The notes under the pieces were generated by a model, which made no database searches, was not told the DNA's origin, and saw only the letters and a list, made by a program, of their open reading frames with translations. From Massilia violaceinigra (GTDB taxonomy: Bacteria; Pseudomonadota; Gammaproteobacteria; Burkholderiales; Burkholderiaceae_D), in contig NZ_CP024608.1 in NCBI RefSeq assembly GCF_002752675.1, forward strand, positions 3,596,001 through 3,660,000: a stretch of DNA of 64,000 nucleotides, read 5' to 3'. This document shows, piece after piece, positions 36,800-43,863 of the stretch. How positions within the stretch are numbered: the stretch's first letter is position 1; every line of letters starts with the position of its first letter. Position numbers and translations under genes: made by a program.

Positions 36800-36852
36800 C
36801 AAGAACGCCACAGTTTGTGGTTTTTCGGTGAAAACTTTTCAATTTCCAAACA

Positions 36853-36900
36853 GTTATGTTCGCTACCGAACCGAACCACTGTTGTGAATAAGGAATAGTG
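36853..36900 (+). promoter_or_regulatory. Conserved upstream element pair before ompA1
   Basis: GTTATGTTCGC (36853-36863) and AATAGTG (36894-36900), start to start 41 bases. The same pair at the same spacing precedes ibp1 and ibp2, i.e. every transcription unit of the OmpA/ice-binding-like cluster. TATGTT could be a -10 hexamer, leaving AATAGTG in the leader. About 140 bases separate the start of the pair from the ATG. Confidence 0.55.
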
Positions 36901-37000
36901 GATACCGAGCTAAGCACAAAAGCATTAGCGATACACCACATCAGCGATAAACCATCCGGGCAGCCAGTCTGTCCGACACATACATACGAGAGAATACAAC

Positions 37001-38143
37001 ATGACCCTGACTAAGAAAATCGGTACTCTGAGCGCAATCGGCTTCGCAATGCTGGCAGGACAAGCATCGGCACAAGACCAGTTCGTGAATCCAGAATGGG
37101 CAAACAGCGCCACCTACATCGGTGCCGGTATCGGCCAGTCGCGCAGCTACACCAAGGCGGCTCCAGTGATCAAGAACCTGAACGGTCAGGGCGGCATGGT
37201 CAATTCGTGGCGCACCGACGAAAAAGACATGGGTTACAAATTGTTTGTTGGTAAGCAACTGAGCCGCTACTTCGCAGTGGAAGCCGGTTTTTTTGACCTG
37301 GGCAACTTCAACGTCAAGACCACCAACAACCTGGGCGGCGTTGTCAACGCTGAGCAGAAGTACAAGGGCGTGAACCTGGACCTGATCGCGCAACTGCCGA
37401 TGAGCGAGCGTTTCTCGGTGTACGGCCGCGCCGGTATGCATTACACCAAAGCAAAAACCCAATTCTCGGGTAACCGCGCAGTTGGCTTGTTCGCTGGCGA
37501 AAAGAGCGAGAAGAAGCTGAACCCGAAAATCGGCGTTGGCCTGGAATACAAGTTCACCGAAGCGCTGGCACTGCGCGCCGAAGCTGAAAACTATCGCATC
37601 GACGACGCGCTGCGCAGCAACGGCAACACCAAGCTGTACTCGATGAACCTGGTCTACAAACTGGGCCGTCCAGCAGCATCGAAGCCAATGCCGGCACCAG
37701 CACCAGCGCCAATGCCGGAAGCAACGCCAGCACCAGCGCCGGCACCAATGCCAGCACCAGCACCGGCACCAGTGCCAGTGTCGGAAAAAGTCTCGTTCGC
37801 TGCTGAAGCCCTGTTCGACTTCGACAAATCGGTTGTCAAGCCAGAAGGCAAAGCCGCTCTGGACGATCTGCTGAACAAGCTGCAAGGCATGAACACCGAA
37901 GTCATGGTTACCGTTGGCCACACCGACTCGGTCGGTTCGGACGCTTACAACCAGAAACTGTCGCTGCGCCGCGCTGAAGCCGTGAAAGCCTACATCGTGT
38001 CGAAAGGCGTGGAAACGTCGCGCGTCTACACCGAAGGCAAGGGCGAGTCCCAGCCAGTTGCTGACAACAAATCGGCAGAAGGCCGCGCTAAAAACCGTCG
38101 CGTGACGGTTGAAGTGGTCGGTACCCGTACCACCGCCAAGTAA
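37001..38143 (+). CDS. OmpA-family outer-membrane porin, paralogue 1
   Basis: 380 residues. The signal peptide ends at ASAQ. Residues ~25-220 form an eight-stranded OmpA-like barrel (YIGAGIGQSR..., ending YKLGRPAA). A Pro/Ala/Met-rich hinge of ~35 residues follows, then the periplasmic OmpA domain (about 262-375) with LFDFDKSVVKPEG, VGHTDSVGSDAYNQKLSLRRAEAV and KNRRVTVEV, which binds peptidoglycan. The gene has its own upstream element and its own strong terminator. It shares the FVNPEWANSA N-terminus with the two downstream paralogues. Confidence 0.93.
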   Translation: MTLTKKIGTLSAIGFAMLAGQASAQDQFVNPEWANSATYIGAGIGQSRSYTKAAPVIKNLNGQGGMVNSWRTDEKDMGYKLFVGKQLSRYFAVEAGFFDLGNFNVKTTNNLGGVVNAEQKYKGVNLDLIAQLPMSERFSVYGRAGMHYTKAKTQFSGNRAVGLFAGEKSEKKLNPKIGVGLEYKFTEALALRAEAENYRIDDALRSNGNTKLYSMNLVYKLGRPAASKPMPAPAPAPMPEATPAPAPAPMPAPAPAPVPVSEKVSFAAEALFDFDKSVVKPEGKAALDDLLNKLQGMNTEVMVTVGHTDSVGSDAYNQKLSLRRAEAVKAYIVSKGVETSRVYTEGKGESQPVADNKSAEGRAKNRRVTVEVVGTRTTAK

Positions 38144-38158
38144 GCTTCCGCTGTACTG

Positions 38159-38194
38159 AAAAGCCGCCGTGCCCGCAAGGGCCGGCGGCTTTTT
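38159..38194 (+). terminator. Rho-independent terminator after ompA1
   Basis: AAAGCCGCCG pairs with CGGCGGCTTT through a GC-rich stem with inner GCCC/GGGC and runs into TTTTT. It lies 15 bases after the ompA1 stop. Confidence 0.9.
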
Positions 38195-38248
38195 AACGTT
38201 AACGCCTGAGTGTGTTGCTACGGTAATGATTATTTTTACGTTTAAAAG

Positions 38249-38296
38249 CCTATGTACGGTGGCGAACGGAGCTAGGGGTGACAAAAGGCAATAGTG
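38249..38296 (+). promoter_or_regulatory. Conserved upstream element pair before ibp1
   Basis: CCTATGTACGG (38249-38259; 8 of 11 match GTTATGTTCGC) and AATAGTG (38290-38296) at the same 41-base spacing as before ompA1 and ibp2. This copy is the weakest of the three. Confidence 0.45.
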
Positions 38297-38347
38297 AATG
38301 ACGTTGCCGCTGTCCGGCCACAGGCCCCAACCCAAAGGAACTAAAAA

Positions 38348-39751
38348 ATGAAAATCACGAAACACGCGAGGGCGTTGCTCTGCACCGCAGGCTTGCTCGC
38401 CGTTTCCCTCCTCGCCGCATGCGGCGGCGGCGGGGACCAGGGCCGCGACCCGATCCTTGGCCAGCCACCCGCCGCCTTGGTCAGCGTCGCCGTCACGCCA
38501 GCCAACGCCACGGTACTCACCACTGAAACGCGCCAGTTCACCGCCACCGCCACCTATGCAGATGGCACATCGCGCGACGTGACGTCGACCTCGGCCTGGC
38601 TGTCCGCCTCGCCCGGTATTGCCGGCGTGAGCGCCGCCAACGGCCTGGCCACCGGCGTGACTGCCGGCAGCGCCGCCATCACCGCCACCTTTTCCAGCAA
38701 GACCGGCGCCGCCACCCTGGTCGTGACGGCACCGGTGCCGCCGCCACCGCCCGTGGTGACCTTGTCGTCCATCGCGGTCACGCCGGCGACTGCGTCCATC
38801 ATGGTGGGCTCGACCCAGCAATTCATTGCCATCGGCACCTATTCGGACAAGTCGACCGCCATCATCACCAATTCGGTGACGTGGAACTCGGCCACCAACG
38901 CCAGCGGCACGATCGCCGCATCCGGCATGGCTTCCGGCGTCGCCGCCGGCACCACCGCGATCAGCGCCAGCAGCAGCGGCCAAACCGCCAGCGCCCTCCT
39001 GACGGTCACCGCGGTGCCAGTCGTTCCACCAGTCGTGCCGCCAGTCGTACCACCAGTCGTTCCACCAGTTGTGCCGCCGGTCGTGCCACCAGTGGTGCCG
39101 CCAGTTGTTCCACCAGTCGTGCCACCGGTCGTGCCGCCAGTCGTACCGCCAGCCGCCGACATCAGCCTGGGCCGCGCAGCCAGCTTTGCCGTGCTCGCAG
39201 GTACGTCGATCACCAATAATTCCGGTGGTACCACCCTGGTCACCGGCGATGTCGGTGCGCCGTCGCAAACCACCGCGCCAACCCAGTCCGCCGGCTACGC
39301 CAACTACAGCTCCGGTCCGATCCTGGCGGGCGCACTGGAAGACTTGCAAGTTGCCGTGACCAGCGCCAACAGCCAAACCTGCACCGTCAGCTCCGCGTCG
39401 GGCGTCGATCTCGGCGGGCTGGTGCTCACCCCGGGCGTGTACTGCTATGCCGGCGCCATCAGCATCACCGGCACGCTGACCCTCAATGGTCCCGGCGTCT
39501 ACATCTTCCGCACCGCGTCGACGCTCAACAGCACGGCGAATGCCATCGTGGCGCTGACCGGCGGCGCATCGGACGGCAGCCTGTACTGGATTCCGGCCGG
39601 ACCGACCACCCTCGGTGCGAACGGTGTCTTCAAGGGATCGATCCTGAGCCAGTCCGCCGCCATTACCGTCGGCGACAACACGAGCCTGTTAAGCGGCCGT
39701 GCACTGAGCGGCGCCGCGGTCACCCTGCGCAATAACAAGATCAGCAAATAA
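38348..39751 (+). CDS. Lipoprotein with Ig-like repeats and DUF3494 ice-binding-like domain, paralogue 1
   Basis: 467 residues, ATG at 38348 behind AAGGA. A lipoprotein signal ends in lipobox L-A-A-C (Cys25), then a Gly-rich stretch. Two bacterial Ig-like (Big_2) domains follow: about residues 40-130 (VAVTPANATV...) and 135-220 (IAVTPATASI...). Then comes a (PVVP)11 stalk and a C-terminal DUF3494 domain of ~195 residues (FAVLAGTSITNNSGGTTLVTGDVG ... LTPGVYCY ... TLTLNGPGVYIFR ... LLSGRALSGAAVTL). DUF3494 is the beta-solenoid of microbial ice-binding proteins, but many members have untested function. It precedes ompA2 by 50 bases. Confidence 0.88.
   Translation: MKITKHARALLCTAGLLAVSLLAACGGGGDQGRDPILGQPPAALVSVAVTPANATVLTTETRQFTATATYADGTSRDVTSTSAWLSASPGIAGVSAANGLATGVTAGSAAITATFSSKTGAATLVVTAPVPPPPPVVTLSSIAVTPATASIMVGSTQQFIAIGTYSDKSTAIITNSVTWNSATNASGTIAASGMASGVAAGTTAISASSSGQTASALLTVTAVPVVPPVVPPVVPPVVPPVVPPVVPPVVPPVVPPVVPPVVPPVVPPAADISLGRAASFAVLAGTSITNNSGGTTLVTGDVGAPSQTTAPTQSAGYANYSSGPILAGALEDLQVAVTSANSQTCTVSSASGVDLGGLVLTPGVYCYAGAISITGTLTLNGPGVYIFRTASTLNSTANAIVALTGGASDGSLYWIPAGPTTLGANGVFKGSILSQSAAITVGDNTSLLSGRALSGAAVTLRNNKISK
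39017..39148 (+). repeat. 12-base tandem repeat encoding (PVVP)11
   Basis: Eleven copies of a 12-base unit (CCA-GTC-GTN-CCN with synonymous changes) encode the proline-valine stalk of ibp1. The paralogue has six copies at 41920. Third-base variation between units shows the protein repeat is kept by selection, while the DNA could still slip. Confidence 0.95.
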
Positions 39752-39801
39752 TTCACAAGCAAGCAGCCAACAAGCCGACTACTTTTTTCCGAAAGCACAT
39801 C

Positions 39802-40947
39802 ATGACATTAGCAAAACACATCGGCGCCCTGAGCGTCATCGGCTGCGCCCTTCTGGCGAGCCAGGCGGCACGGGCGGACGAGCCTTTCGTCAATCCGGAG
39901 TGGGCCAACAGCGCCTGGTACATCGGCGCCGGCATCGGCCAATCGCGCGCCAATATCGACAATGAGCGCCTGACGCGCAGCCTGACGGCCAATGGCGCCA
40001 CCCTGAACTCGTTCAAGGTCGACGAGCGCGACCTGGCCTACAAGCTGTTCGTCGGCAAGCAGCTGAACCGCTACTTCGCGGTCGAGGCCGGCTTTTTCGA
40101 TCTGGGCAAGTTCGGCTTCGATGCGAGCACGTCCCAGAATGGCCGCCTGATTGGCGAAGCGGGCTTTCGCGGCGTGAACATGGATCTGGTGGCGCAACTG
40201 CCGATGTCCGACCGTTTTTCGGTGCTGGGCCGGATTGGCATGAACTACGCGAAGGCCAGCACGCACTTCCGCGGCAACCGCCTGTTTGCGGTGACCAATC
40301 CCAACCCGAGCGAGCGCAAGCTCAATGCCAAGGCCGGACTGGGCCTGGAATTCAAGTTCAGCGAAGCGCTGGCCCTGCGCGGCGAAGTCGAGCGCTACCG
40401 CGTCAACGATGCCGTGGGCAACCGCGGCGATGTCGACATGGCGTCGCTCAGCCTGGTGTACAAGCTGGGGCGCCCTGCAGCGAGCCGTCCGGCACCGGTT
40501 GAGCCGATGCCGGCACCAGCGCCAGTGACGGCCGCCCCGGCGCCGGCACCGGCTGCGCCAGCGCCTGCCGCGCCGGTTGCCGTATCGGAAAAAGTATCGT
40601 TCGCCGCCGAAGCGCTGTTCGACTTCGACAAGTCGGTGGTCAAGCCGGAAGGCAAGGCCGCGCTCGATGACTTGCTGAACAAGCTGCAAGGCATGAACAC
40701 CGAAGTGATGGTCACCGTCGGCCATACCGATTCGGTCGGCACCGACGCCTACAACCAGAAGCTGTCGATGCGCCGTGCCGAAGCGGTCAAGGCCTACATC
40801 GTCTCGAAAGGTGTCGAGGCGGGGCGCGTGTACACCGAAGGCAAGGGCGAAACGCAGCCGGTTGCCGACAACAAGACCGCCGAAGGCCGTGCCAAAAACC
40901 GCCGCGTGACGGTGGAAGTGGTCGGCACCCGCAGCGTCAACAAGTAA
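39802..40947 (+). CDS. OmpA-family outer-membrane porin, paralogue 2
   Basis: 381 residues with a signal peptide ending near AARA. Barrel, Ala/Pro hinge and peptidoglycan-binding OmpA domain are as in paralogue 1; the stretch VSEKVSFAAEALFDFDKSVV and the following 60 residues are almost identical between the two. The barrel is closer to paralogue 3 (RSLTANGA, HFRGNRLFAVTNPNPSERKLNAKAG). It has no promoter element of its own and follows ibp1, so the lipoprotein and the porin are probably made together. A terminator follows. Confidence 0.93.
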   Translation: MTLAKHIGALSVIGCALLASQAARADEPFVNPEWANSAWYIGAGIGQSRANIDNERLTRSLTANGATLNSFKVDERDLAYKLFVGKQLNRYFAVEAGFFDLGKFGFDASTSQNGRLIGEAGFRGVNMDLVAQLPMSDRFSVLGRIGMNYAKASTHFRGNRLFAVTNPNPSERKLNAKAGLGLEFKFSEALALRGEVERYRVNDAVGNRGDVDMASLSLVYKLGRPAASRPAPVEPMPAPAPVTAAPAPAPAAPAPAAPVAVSEKVSFAAEALFDFDKSVVKPEGKAALDDLLNKLQGMNTEVMVTVGHTDSVGTDAYNQKLSMRRAEAVKAYIVSKGVEAGRVYTEGKGETQPVADNKTAEGRAKNRRVTVEVVGTRSVNK

Positions 40948-41014
40948 CTGCTTCGCCAGCAACTGTTGCTTAACCGGGGTCAGACCCCTTCTATGTCGGT
41001 GGCAATAGTTGCAA

Positions 41015-41055
41015 GGGCGGCGTGAGCGCGACATGCGCCGCCGCCCCATTTTTTT
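41015..41055 (+). terminator. Rho-independent terminator after ompA2
   Basis: GGGCGGCG (41015-41022) pairs with CGCCGCCC just before a run of seven T (41049-41055). It closes the ibp1-ompA2 unit. Confidence 0.75.
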
Positions 41056-41131
41056 GCCGGAACAAGGCAATAAAAGAGCCCTGCAGGACTTTCCCGTTGT
41101 GTTTTAGTACAATGTTGCCAATCTTTAAGCC

Positions 41132-41179
41132 GTTATGTTCGCCGGCGCACAGAACACCCTGATGCGCAGGAGAATAGTG
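41132..41179 (+). promoter_or_regulatory. Conserved upstream element pair before ibp2
   Basis: GTTATGTTCGC (41132-41142), an exact 11-base match to the ompA1 copy, and AATAGTG (41173-41179), spaced 41 bases start to start. The ATG of ibp2 is 50 bases further on. Confidence 0.55.
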
Positions 41180-41229
41180 TTGAATACACCTCGTAACGGC
41201 GAGAAATTATCTTTCCCAAGGACGCTTTA

Positions 41230-42642
41230 ATGAACATTAAAAAATATACAACAACTCTGTTATGCGCGACCGGCCTGCTGGCCGTGTCCGTGCTGGCAGC
41301 TTGCGGCGGCAGCAGCGACCGCGGCCGCGATCCGATTCTGGGCCTGCCGGCCGCGGAACTGGTCAGCGTCACGGTCACGCCGCCCACGGCCACCGTGCTG
41401 ACCGGCGCCAGCCAGCAATTCATCGCCACCGCCAGCTATGCCGACGGTACCTCGCGCAACGTGACCGATGTGTCGGTATGGGCCTCGGCCTCGCCCACCA
41501 TCGCCCGCGTGACCCCGGCCGGCGGCCTGGCCACCGGCCTGACCCCTGGCAGCGCCGCCATCACCGCCGCCTTCGGCGCCAAAACCGGCGCGGCGACCCT
41601 GGTGGTCAACGCACAGGTTCCGGTCAACCCGCCCGCCGTCATCAGCGTGACCGGCCTGTCGGTGACCCCGGCCGCGGCCAGCGTGCGCGTGGGCGCCAGC
41701 CAGCAGTTCACCGCGATCGCCACGTATTCCGACAGCTCGACCGCCGTCATCACGAATGACGTGAAATGGACCTCGGGCAGCACCGCCACCGCTACCGTTG
41801 CCGCGTCGGGCAGCGCGACTGGCGTTACCGTCGGCAATACCGTGATCACTGCCACCTCGGGCGACAAGAGCGCCACCGGCGCCCTGACCGTCACGCCGGC
41901 ACTGATCATCGATCCGCCGCCGGTCGTGCCGCCAGTCGTTCCGCCAGTGGTGCCACCAGTCGTTCCGCCAGTCGTGCCACCAGTGGTGCCGCCGGTGACC
42001 AACCCGCCAGTGGTGACGCCACCAGTCATTGAAGCACCTTCCGATGGCGGCATTGGCCTGGGCCGCGCACGCGAATTCGCCGTGCTGGCGGTCACCACCA
42101 TCACCAACAACGCCGGCGGCACCACCCTGGTGACCGGTGACGTCGGTGCGCCGCTACAGAACGTCGAGCCGGAGCAGCCGCTGGGCTTCCGCAACGTCAA
42201 GTCCGGTTTCGAGCTGAGCGGTCCATATCAGGATCTGCAGGTTGCCGTGATCAATGCCAACAACCGTCCTTGCGCGATCCTGTCGGACGCCGGCATCGAC
42301 CTCGGTGGACTGGTGCTCCAGCCTGGCGTGTACTGCTATTCCGGCGCGATCAGCCTGACCGGCAAGCTGACCCTGAGCGGCAACGGCCCGTACATTTTCC
42401 GCGCCAAGTCGACCCTGACCACGATGGCCAACTCCACCATTGAACTGATTAACGGTGCCCGCGCCGACAATGTGTTCTGGGTGCCGGTCGAGGCGACCAC
42501 GCTGGGCGCGAACAGCGCGTTCAAGGGAACCGTTCTGAGCCGTGGCGAAGACATCACGCTGGGCGACGGCGCGACGGTGTTGAACGGTCGTTTGCTGAGC
42601 GGCAAAGCTGTAACGCTGCGCAACAACAAGATCACCAAATAA
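41230..42642 (+). CDS. Lipoprotein with Ig-like repeats and DUF3494 ice-binding-like domain, paralogue 2
   Basis: 470 residues with the same layout as paralogue 1: lipobox L-A-A-C (Cys25), two Ig-like domains (VTVTPPTATVLTGASQQF... and LSVTPAAASVRVGASQQF...), a shorter (PVVP)6 stalk followed by TNPPVVTPPV, and a DUF3494 domain (FAVLAVTTITNNAGGTTLVTGDVG ... LQPGVYCYSG ... GPYIFRAKSTLTT ... VFWVPVEATTLGANSAFKGT). It lies 22 bases before ompA3. The paired arrangement and the shared upstream element show that a whole [lipoprotein-porin] unit was duplicated. Confidence 0.88.
   Translation: MNIKKYTTTLLCATGLLAVSVLAACGGSSDRGRDPILGLPAAELVSVTVTPPTATVLTGASQQFIATASYADGTSRNVTDVSVWASASPTIARVTPAGGLATGLTPGSAAITAAFGAKTGAATLVVNAQVPVNPPAVISVTGLSVTPAAASVRVGASQQFTAIATYSDSSTAVITNDVKWTSGSTATATVAASGSATGVTVGNTVITATSGDKSATGALTVTPALIIDPPPVVPPVVPPVVPPVVPPVVPPVVPPVTNPPVVTPPVIEAPSDGGIGLGRAREFAVLAVTTITNNAGGTTLVTGDVGAPLQNVEPEQPLGFRNVKSGFELSGPYQDLQVAVINANNRPCAILSDAGIDLGGLVLQPGVYCYSGAISLTGKLTLSGNGPYIFRAKSTLTTMANSTIELINGARADNVFWVPVEATTLGANSAFKGTVLSRGEDITLGDGATVLNGRLLSGKAVTLRNNKITK
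41920..41991 (+). repeat. 12-base tandem repeat encoding (PVVP)6
   Basis: Six copies of the same 12-base unit as at 39017 encode the stalk of ibp2. The copy number differs from the eleven in ibp1. Confidence 0.95.
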
Positions 42643-42664
42643 GAAAAATTTTTGAGAGAGAGCA

Positions 42665-43804
42665 ATGACATTTACTAAAAAAGCGGGCCTCATGGGCGCC
42701 ATCGGCTGCGCCCTGGTTGCAGGGCAGGCAGCGGCAGCGGACGACGTCTTCATCAACCCGGAGTGGGCCAACAGCGCCTGGTACGTGGGCGGCAATATCG
42801 GCCAGACGCGCGCCAACGTCGATGACGTGCGCCTGATCCGCAGCCTGACCGCCAATGGCGCCGGCCTGAACTCGTTCACGACCGACGAGAAAGATGTCGG
42901 CTACAAGCTGTATGTCGGCAAGCAGCTGAACCAGTACTTCGCGGTTGAAGCAGGCTTCTTCGATCTGGGCAAGTTCGGCTTCAAGTCGACCACTACCCAG
43001 AACGGCACGCTCAACGGCGAAGCCGGTTTCCGTGGCGTCAATCTGGACCTGGTGGCGCAAGTGCCGCTCTCGCAGCGCTTCTCGGTATTCGGCCGCGCCG
43101 GCATGAACTATGCCAAGGCGACCACGCGCTTCCATGGTAACCGCCTGTTCGCGGTGACCAATCCAAGCCCGAGCGAGCGCAAGCTCAACGCCAAGGCCGG
43201 CTTCGGCCTGGAATACAAGTTCAGCGAAGCGCTGGCCTTGCGCGGCGAAGTCGAGCGCTACCGTGTCAACGATGCCGTGGGCAACCGCGGCGATGTCGAC
43301 CTGTTCTCGGTGGGCCTGGTCTACAAGATCGGACGTCCGGCTGCCAAGCCGGTCGCTCCGGTTGAGCCGGCGCCGGCGCCAGTGGTGCCGGTGGTGGCGC
43401 CAGCCGCGGCCCAGCCGCCGGCCGAGCCAGCCAAGCCGATGACTCCGGTCGCGGAAAAATCGACTTTCTCGGCCGAAGCCGTGTTTGCCTTCGACAGCGC
43501 CGTGCTGCGCCCGGAGGGCAAGGCATCGCTCGACGAGCTGCTGACCAAGCTGCAAGGCATGGATGCGGACGTCATGATCACGGTCGGCCACACCGACTCG
43601 ATCGGCCGCGCCGCGTACAACGAGAAGCTGTCGCTGCGCCGCGCCGCGTCGGTCAAGGCGTACCTGGTATCCAAGGGCGTCGACGCCGCGCGCGTCTACA
43701 CCGAAGGCAAGGGCGAAACCCAGCCGGTAGCCGACAACAAGACGGCGGAAGGCCGCGCCAAGAACCGCCGCGTGACGGTGGAAGTGGTCGGCACGCGCCG
43801 CTAA
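42665..43804 (+). CDS. OmpA-family outer-membrane porin, paralogue 3
   Basis: 379 residues; GAGAGAG precedes the ATG. The signal peptide ends at AAAA. The barrel is close to paralogue 2, the hinge is Pro/Ala/Val-rich, and the OmpA domain (VFAFDSAVLRPEG, VGHTDSIGRAAYNEKLSLRRAASV, KNRRVTVEV) is more diverged than in the other two. It is probably co-transcribed with ibp2 and is closed by a strong terminator. Confidence 0.93.
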   Translation: MTFTKKAGLMGAIGCALVAGQAAAADDVFINPEWANSAWYVGGNIGQTRANVDDVRLIRSLTANGAGLNSFTTDEKDVGYKLYVGKQLNQYFAVEAGFFDLGKFGFKSTTTQNGTLNGEAGFRGVNLDLVAQVPLSQRFSVFGRAGMNYAKATTRFHGNRLFAVTNPSPSERKLNAKAGFGLEYKFSEALALRGEVERYRVNDAVGNRGDVDLFSVGLVYKIGRPAAKPVAPVEPAPAPVVPVVAPAAAQPPAEPAKPMTPVAEKSTFSAEAVFAFDSAVLRPEGKASLDELLTKLQGMDADVMITVGHTDSIGRAAYNEKLSLRRAASVKAYLVSKGVDAARVYTEGKGETQPVADNKTAEGRAKNRRVTVEVVGTRR

Positions 43805-43824
43805 GCCGATCCGGCTTGCCGCAC

Positions 43825-43863
43825 AAAAAAAACCGCAGGGCTGCGTGCCCCGCGGTTTTTTTT
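43825..43863 (+). terminator. Rho-independent terminator after ompA3
   Basis: AAAACCGC with GCGGTTTT, inner GGG/CCC, and a run of eight T. It lies about 20 bases after the ompA3 stop. Confidence 0.9.

Follow-up and report, generated by a model that had tools for sequence, protein, structure and literature searches.

How proteobacterial lipoproteins reach the cell surface and stay there is poorly understood, and the surface loops of OmpA are usually regarded as variable. Two described systems come close to the one presented here: AtaA-TpgA, a trimeric autotransporter adhesin whose anchor is reinforced by a periplasmic partner, according to the accessible part of the report (PMC13082670), and RcsF, which in the excerpt available binds the periplasmic domain of Escherichia coli OmpA (PMC7553776). 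For ice-binding proteins (IBPs) of the DUF3494 family, the partial accounts of AnpIBP (7bwx/7bwy), FfIBP (4nu2) and the DUF3494 domain of SfIBP_1 (6bg8) mention no dedicated OmpA partner, and a survey of DUF3494 gene neighbours in Arctic metagenome-assembled genomes (MAGs) lists other neighbours without naming OmpA in the section at hand (PMC9957290). Here we describe a locus of Massilia violaceinigra in which DUF3494 lipoproteins and OmpA proteins are paired. It occupies positions 36,853 to 43,863 of the window, a stretch of 64,000 nucleotides from contig NZ_CP024608.1, and contains five genes, all on the plus strand, in the order ompA1, ibp1, ompA2, ibp2 and ompA3. We propose that each ibp-ompA pair probably encodes one surface-display complex, in which the lipoprotein would be docked on its own OmpA and anchored to peptidoglycan.

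Pfam analysis recovered the DUF3494 domain (PF11999) in both lipoproteins, with 102.1 bits for ibp1 and 119.7 bits for ibp2 at a curated cut-off of 28.7, and two Big_2 stretches in each. These two are the PF11999 matches of the genome. In the model the heads adopt a discontinuous beta-solenoid with a bracing helix. A lipobox follows the hydrophobic signal (LLAA-C25 in ibp1, VLAA-C25 in ibp2), and by this pattern both are predicted bacterial lipoproteins. The architecture proposed in the first-pass annotation, that is a lipobox, two immunoglobulin-like (Ig) domains, a Pro-Val stalk and a DUF3494 domain, was borne out by Pfam, sequence and tandem repeats, and its assignment to DUF3494 held in both the profile search and the structural model. 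Archaeal DUF3494 domains from a Bathyarchaeota MAG and Nitrosotenuis (L046, L047) were retrieved as matches together with ibp2. All three OmpA proteins contain PF01389 and PF00691, each above cut-off, and the model of ompA3 (mean predicted local distance difference test score, pLDDT, 76.7) shows the eight-stranded barrel and peptidoglycan-type C-terminal domain of the OmpA family. Residues D311 and R326 of this domain, which we take to be the peptidoglycan-binding Asp and Arg, are invariant in 37 rows. ompA1, ompA2 and ompA3 missed the NCBIfam cut-offs for OmpABordt (equivalog, 200; 194.9, 197.6 and 178.3 bits) and porin OmpA PRK10808 (277; 172.1, 165 and 158.1 bits), as well as that for TpgA (NF047726, equivalog, 350; 45.9-49.4 bits), a protein that presumably has an OmpA-like domain, as its NCBIfam name also says.

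The pairing is conserved and is marked by a short box directly behind the predicted lipidated cysteine, typically CGGG-x-GRDPILG. Among relatives, 31 of 100 carried PF11999; within the genus it was present in 15 of 17 genomes and within the family in 77 of 294. We read the neighbourhoods of 120 matches (115 from the own family, five from other families of the order) and sought an OmpA partner at most 600 bp behind the IBP frame. Of these, 115 were assessed; matches of G084, G006 and G036 (three) were dropped because of contig or locus ends, short length or frameshifts, and a second G006 fragment was not entered. Box and downstream OmpA agreed in 113 of the 115 matches: 70 had both and 43 neither, while one had only the box (G211) and one only the OmpA (G232, whose start reads CGGGGGDPILG). 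One paired case was counted by hand, since its OmpA open frame overlaps the IBP gene (G193). A relaxed box pattern, which also fits one OmpA-less protein (G247), gave 71 with both, 42 with neither, two with the box only and none with OmpA only. Fisher values for this table ignore kinship and were not used. Box and OmpA co-occur in 20 genera, including two from other families of the same order. A sample of the class contained PF11999 in 14 of 369 genomes; among the 18 matches analysed, out of 25 outside the own genome, two had the box (families f68 and f159) and both were followed by OmpA, whereas OmpA was not found at the other loci, and four rows were problematic (L211 and L217 with a wrong or short frame, L218 a fragment, L205 without N-terminus). 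In a sample of the phylum, 23 of 398 genomes matched PF11999, 21 above cut-off; across the 28 loci read (L317 and L318 without a domain hit; four locus-less matches lay outside), box and OmpA occurred only in G944, a member of the same order. The one-to-one pairing suspected at the outset is seen in the gene order here and in relatives, and it persists in 20 genera of the order and two further families of the class. The lipid anchor, by comparison, does not distinguish the pair as had been assumed. A loose lipobox pattern flagged 98 proteins in all, 26 of them without box and OmpA; 13 of these have clear lipoprotein starts by eye, the rest an internal or doubtful cysteine. Because of these 13 cases, lipid anchoring alone is not a mark of pairing. 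The length of the stalk varies widely while box and partner are retained, and L014 and L016 are too short for Ig domains beside the head. Flanking genes were common to 126 of 149 locus pairs within a genus, compared with just 30 of 1336 across genera (55 loci), which means that conserved gene order at large does not account for the pair.

Closer inspection of the box revealed RDP[IV]L near the start of 92 of 120 listed ibp2 homologues, most of the others being GRxPILG-like by eye. C25, G32, R33, P35, L37 and G38 are invariant in an alignment of 40 rows. At order-level loci found via OmpA, 14 of 14 neighbouring DUF3494 lipoproteins carry [IV]LG soon after the cysteine; 11 have a proline before it, and the others read QGAILG, SSILG and HTILG. 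Four of these loci (L269, L270, L274, L278) are arrays of two or three DUF3494 genes. There the OmpA-adjacent gene carries the box, and five readable starts of the further genes are all box-less. A DNA pattern for RDP-I-(L/F)-G was searched in 60 genomes and 30 loci were opened, 29 of which gave an RDPILG frame. Six were DUF3494 lipoproteins. The rest were unrelated non-lipoproteins: an APRDPILG family (presumably aminotransferases), two stray frames and a conserved protein whose motif lies around residue 444. As the opened frames held no other lipoprotein, they lend no support to the box as a signal for lipoprotein sorting in general. A box with another head beside OmpA was not found at the unpaired barrels of G015, G011, G003, G009, G005, G007 and G095.

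On the side of the partner, a barrel search in 60 relatives gave more than 180 bits in 21 genomes, 20 of which have the pair (frameshifted in G006). In the remaining 39 the score reaches at most 85 bits, and PF11999 was present in just one of them, G080, box-less. We compared 73 paired OmpAs (one set by hand) with 17 unpaired ones and found two surface-loop motifs: the pattern I/V-D-D-x-R in the first loop (L1) occurred in 65 of 73 paired versus 0 of 17 unpaired proteins, and D-A-V-G-N-R/K in the fourth loop (L4) in 64 of 73 versus 0 of 17. The ompA3 model places both motifs on the barrel side opposite the chain ends, and, with the sidedness taken from known OmpA topology, they would therefore lie outside. 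A column scan, thinned to 39 paired and 11 unpaired rows, yielded 14 paired-specific columns. Seven fall into L1, L3 and L4 (R56, L61, V164, P167, P169, V205, G206) and seven into barrel strands, with N202 bordering L4; none was detected in the periplasmic turns (12 positions), the linker (38) or the C-terminal domain (119). Six independent tree contrasts agreed in direction, with a median p of 0.031 for L1. With the loop patterns fixed beforehand, an order-level search recovered the barrel at E 1e-20 in 42 of 399 genomes. This provided 35 barrels from genomes outside the OmpA set, 34 of them assessable (in G968 the contig starts at the barrel), 14 with a DUF3494 gene just upstream and 20 without. 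The L4 pattern was present in 10 of 14 paired and 0 of 20 unpaired barrels, the L1 pattern in 13 of 14 and 2 of 20 (G886 and a doubtful match in G440). Against the ten better unpaired barrels the figures were 10/14 to 0/10 for L4 and 13/14 to 2/10 for L1.

We envisage that the lipoprotein is lipidated at Cys25 and seated in the outer leaflet, where its membrane-proximal box (C-G-rich-xxPILG) would dock on the extracellular rim of its own OmpA. This rim would be formed by L1 and L4 (in full N-D-A-V-G-N-R/K-G-D), and L3 possibly contributes. The barrel would keep the complex in the outer membrane while the C-terminal domain would grip peptidoglycan. Ig domains and Pro-Val stalk would project the head, a DUF3494 beta-solenoid, away from the cell, where it would bind a surface, in the simplest case ice; such a display could let the cell hold on under load. 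A surface display unit with OmpA as its peptidoglycan anchor had been put forward in the first-pass annotation; box and loop motifs make it the best reading, with the contact of box and loops, and the surface exposure that we infer from loop conservation, as its conditional parts. With somewhat less confidence than an even chance, we further suggest that this OmpA branch might be a dedicated, co-evolving outer-face receptor for one lipoprotein class, with box and loops as a recognition code and a distinct display route.

Several observations weigh against this proposal. L4 is missing in 9 and L1 in 8 of the 73 paired rows, and the patterns were derived from the same paired set in which they were counted. 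The unpaired rows are few (17; 11 after thinning) and often paralogues of paired ones; of the motif residues, only R56 in L1 and N202, V205 and G206 at L4 pass as paired-specific, and the tree contrast for L4 reached a median p of 0.0625. At the order level, a pattern could match at any position of the frame, and half of the 20 unpaired barrels (10) are poor relatives with scores below 180 bits, some with internal stops. Subfamily and pairing stay confounded in this test: since the unpaired barrels are mostly more distant, it identifies the subfamily with the motifs as the paired one but does not by itself demonstrate contact. G886 carries the L1 motif without a DUF3494 neighbour, and in G003 a barrel of the family (>180 bits) stands unpaired in a genome without PF11999. 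The choice of the relaxed box form, [IV]LG, followed inspection of the order-level set. Finally, G211 has the box (RDPVLG), yet no such barrel was found in its genome. In G192, of the same genus, the box is broken (HAPVPG) and a barrel match is likewise absent, which suggests decay of the box after loss of the barrel in one genus.

Lipoprotein-barrel partnerships of other kinds exist, as far as the accessible parts of the reports go (PMC4942254, PMC7553776), and OmpA might act as a route or gate in export or sensing and not as an anchor, with the N-terminal tether running through or along the barrel, as argued for RcsF and beta-barrel proteins. The box is immediately next to the membrane, at the point where such a tether would enter a barrel, and 7 of the 14 paired-specific columns are in barrel strands. 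We nevertheless regard this as unlikely. The contact of RcsF was mapped to the periplasmic C-terminal domain of OmpA and not to the barrel in the excerpt available (PMC7553776). In the C-terminal domain we find 0 of 119 positions paired-specific, and the distance of about 19 residues between Cys25 and the first Ig strand of ibp2 is short for threading. Even less probable appears a link by regulation only, in which a stress-induced OmpA is co-expressed with the lipoprotein and the two make no contact. The repeated occurrence of a Crp/Fnr-type regulator and of a BON-domain protein beside the pair in several genera makes stress co-regulation plausible, but this would leave unexplained why the OmpA-adjacent DUF3494 lipoproteins carry the box while neighbours at the same locus do not, and why the loop motifs go with pairing.

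A different question is what the displayed head would bind. DUF3494 proteins also occur in rock and subsurface sets and are termed ice- or substrate-binding in the part of that study at hand (PMC12337378), and with display as proposed, the head might be an adhesin for a polysaccharide, a mineral or other cells. The paired heads speak for an ice-like face, with small residues on the 16 ice-face positions in a mean of 82% compared with 74% in unpaired heads (whose alignment is gappy at one of these positions) and a threonine-rich column 4. ibp1 has small residues at 14 of 16 positions and seems to keep this face. ibp2 has 10 of 16 and, as a point against ice, five charged residues on the 16 positions; all seven ibp2 orthologues carry E440 and K459 on the face corresponding to the ice-binding one of relatives. 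Nor are paired heads poorer in charged residues on this face, with a mean of 1.49 against 1.40 in unpaired heads. Of the two heads, that of ibp2 thus seems less likely to bind ice, and a change of ligand after duplication is possible for it. Overall, we consider a non-ice target a serious but lesser possibility.

In other species, a thioesterase - ompA - UvrA-like locus exists with no IBP at that place (L191, L193, L195), and both ibp-ompA cassettes sit at this resident locus, the flanking genes here being assigned by Pfam. Judged by this neighbourhood, ompA1 is the resident paralogue and stands outside the ibp-ompA unit, in which it had previously been included. The idea that the pair was duplicated as a unit gained support: the loci with the closest OmpA relatives of each pair largely coincide with those of its closest IBP relatives, namely the first five for ibp1-ompA2 and the first six for ibp2-ompA3. 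In a quick tree, unpaired OmpAs, the resident gene included, formed clusters nested within the paired ones (4 changes versus 15.9 in shuffles), and a tree without the loop columns had 7 changes between paired and unpaired OmpAs. IBP and OmpA distances were correlated (Mantel 0.81, 69 pairs, 0 of 999 permutations); we do not treat this as main evidence, because species history alone could yield much of it.

The features of the locus are compiled in the table. The genome comprises 7.5 Mb and its near relatives by protein identity are Massilia spp.; the OmpAs closest to those of the locus (98%) belong to Massilia sp. CCM 9210 and M. scottii. The gaps between lipoprotein and partner genes are 50 bp (ibp1 to ompA2) and 22 bp (ibp2 to ompA3), and the described region ends just beyond the terminator-like stem. 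A sigma-70 promoter scan gave no match. By eye, similar short stretches around TTATGTTCGC lie upstream of ompA1 (36841-36875), ibp2 (41120-41150) and, less clearly, ibp1 (38240-38270), possibly a shared regulatory element. The Crp/Fnr-type regulator was seen near the pair in six genera and six families (L090, L230, L265, L267, L271, L277); one scanned by Pfam contains HTH_Crp_2, and it is possibly the cognate regulator of the pair. The BON-domain protein was seen in four genera of two families (L231, L269, L270, L274, L278; one was scanned and contains BON), which hints at a context of envelope or osmotic stress.

Table. Positions of the genes and sequence features of the ibp-ompA locus within the window.
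Feature	Position	Strand	Basis
ompA1, resident unpaired OmpA paralogue without L1/L4 loop motifs	37001-38143	+	Pfam, resident locus, loop comparison
ibp1, lipoprotein: two Big_2 domains, Pro-Val stalk, DUF3494 head (residues 282-465)	38348-39751	+	Pfam
ibp1 Cys25 (predicted lipidation site) and box CGGGGDQGRDPILG	38420-38461	+	sequence, box comparison
ibp1 Pro-Val stalk repeats, 12 bp, 11.3 copies	39017-39152	+	tandem repeats
ompA2, OmpA paired with ibp1	39802-40947	+	Pfam, gene neighbourhood
ompA2 L1 surface-loop motif IDNERL, residues 52-57	39955-39972	+	loop placed via ompA3 model
ompA2 L4 surface-loop motif NDAVGNRGD, residues 202-210	40405-40431	+	loop placed via ompA3 model
ibp2, lipoprotein: Ig domains 44-127 and 140-222, stalk 223-270, DUF3494 head 273-470	41230-42642	+	
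ibp2 Cys25 (predicted lipidation site) and box CGGSSDRGRDPILG	41302-41343	+	sequence, box comparison
ibp2 Pro-Val stalk repeats, 12 bp, 6.5 copies	41916-41993	+	tandem repeats
ompA3, paired with ibp2: 8-stranded barrel 39-222, linker, peptidoglycan-type domain 261-379	42665-43804	+	Pfam, model
ompA3 L1 surface-loop motif VDDVRL, residues 52-57	42818-42835	+	loop comparison, model
ompA3 L4 surface-loop motif NDAVGNRGD, residues 202-210	43268-43294	+	loop comparison, model
Terminator-like stem 3' of ompA3	43837-43859	+	consensus match only

In the open-licence literature we found no paper on a pairing of DUF3494 or ice-binding proteins with OmpA; the component families are known, and that literature yielded no description of the conserved pair, the box or the loop code. 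The box and the OmpA loops appear to change together and would provide a defined, mutable pair for studying outer-face contact between a lipoprotein and OmpA. The locus also suggests that ice-binding-type proteins exist in a cell-anchored form, with genes now annotated separately as "ice-binding" or "Ig-like" and "OmpA". The OmpA-less DUF3494 lipoproteins of the same order resemble the paired ones in signal, C-G-rich start and head, but differ in having neither box nor OmpA in the 13 clear cases. Like RcsF and OmpA, a lipoprotein is partnered here with OmpA, probably by direct contact; unlike in that system, the paired-specific columns lie in the surface loops and the barrel. With AtaA-TpgA, the locus would share the principle of a surface adhesin whose membrane anchor is strengthened by an auxiliary envelope protein. 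However, TpgA is periplasmic and binds the transmembrane domain of its adhesin, according to the part of the report available, whereas in M. violaceinigra a lipoprotein, the putative adhesin, is partnered by an OmpA with a full barrel.
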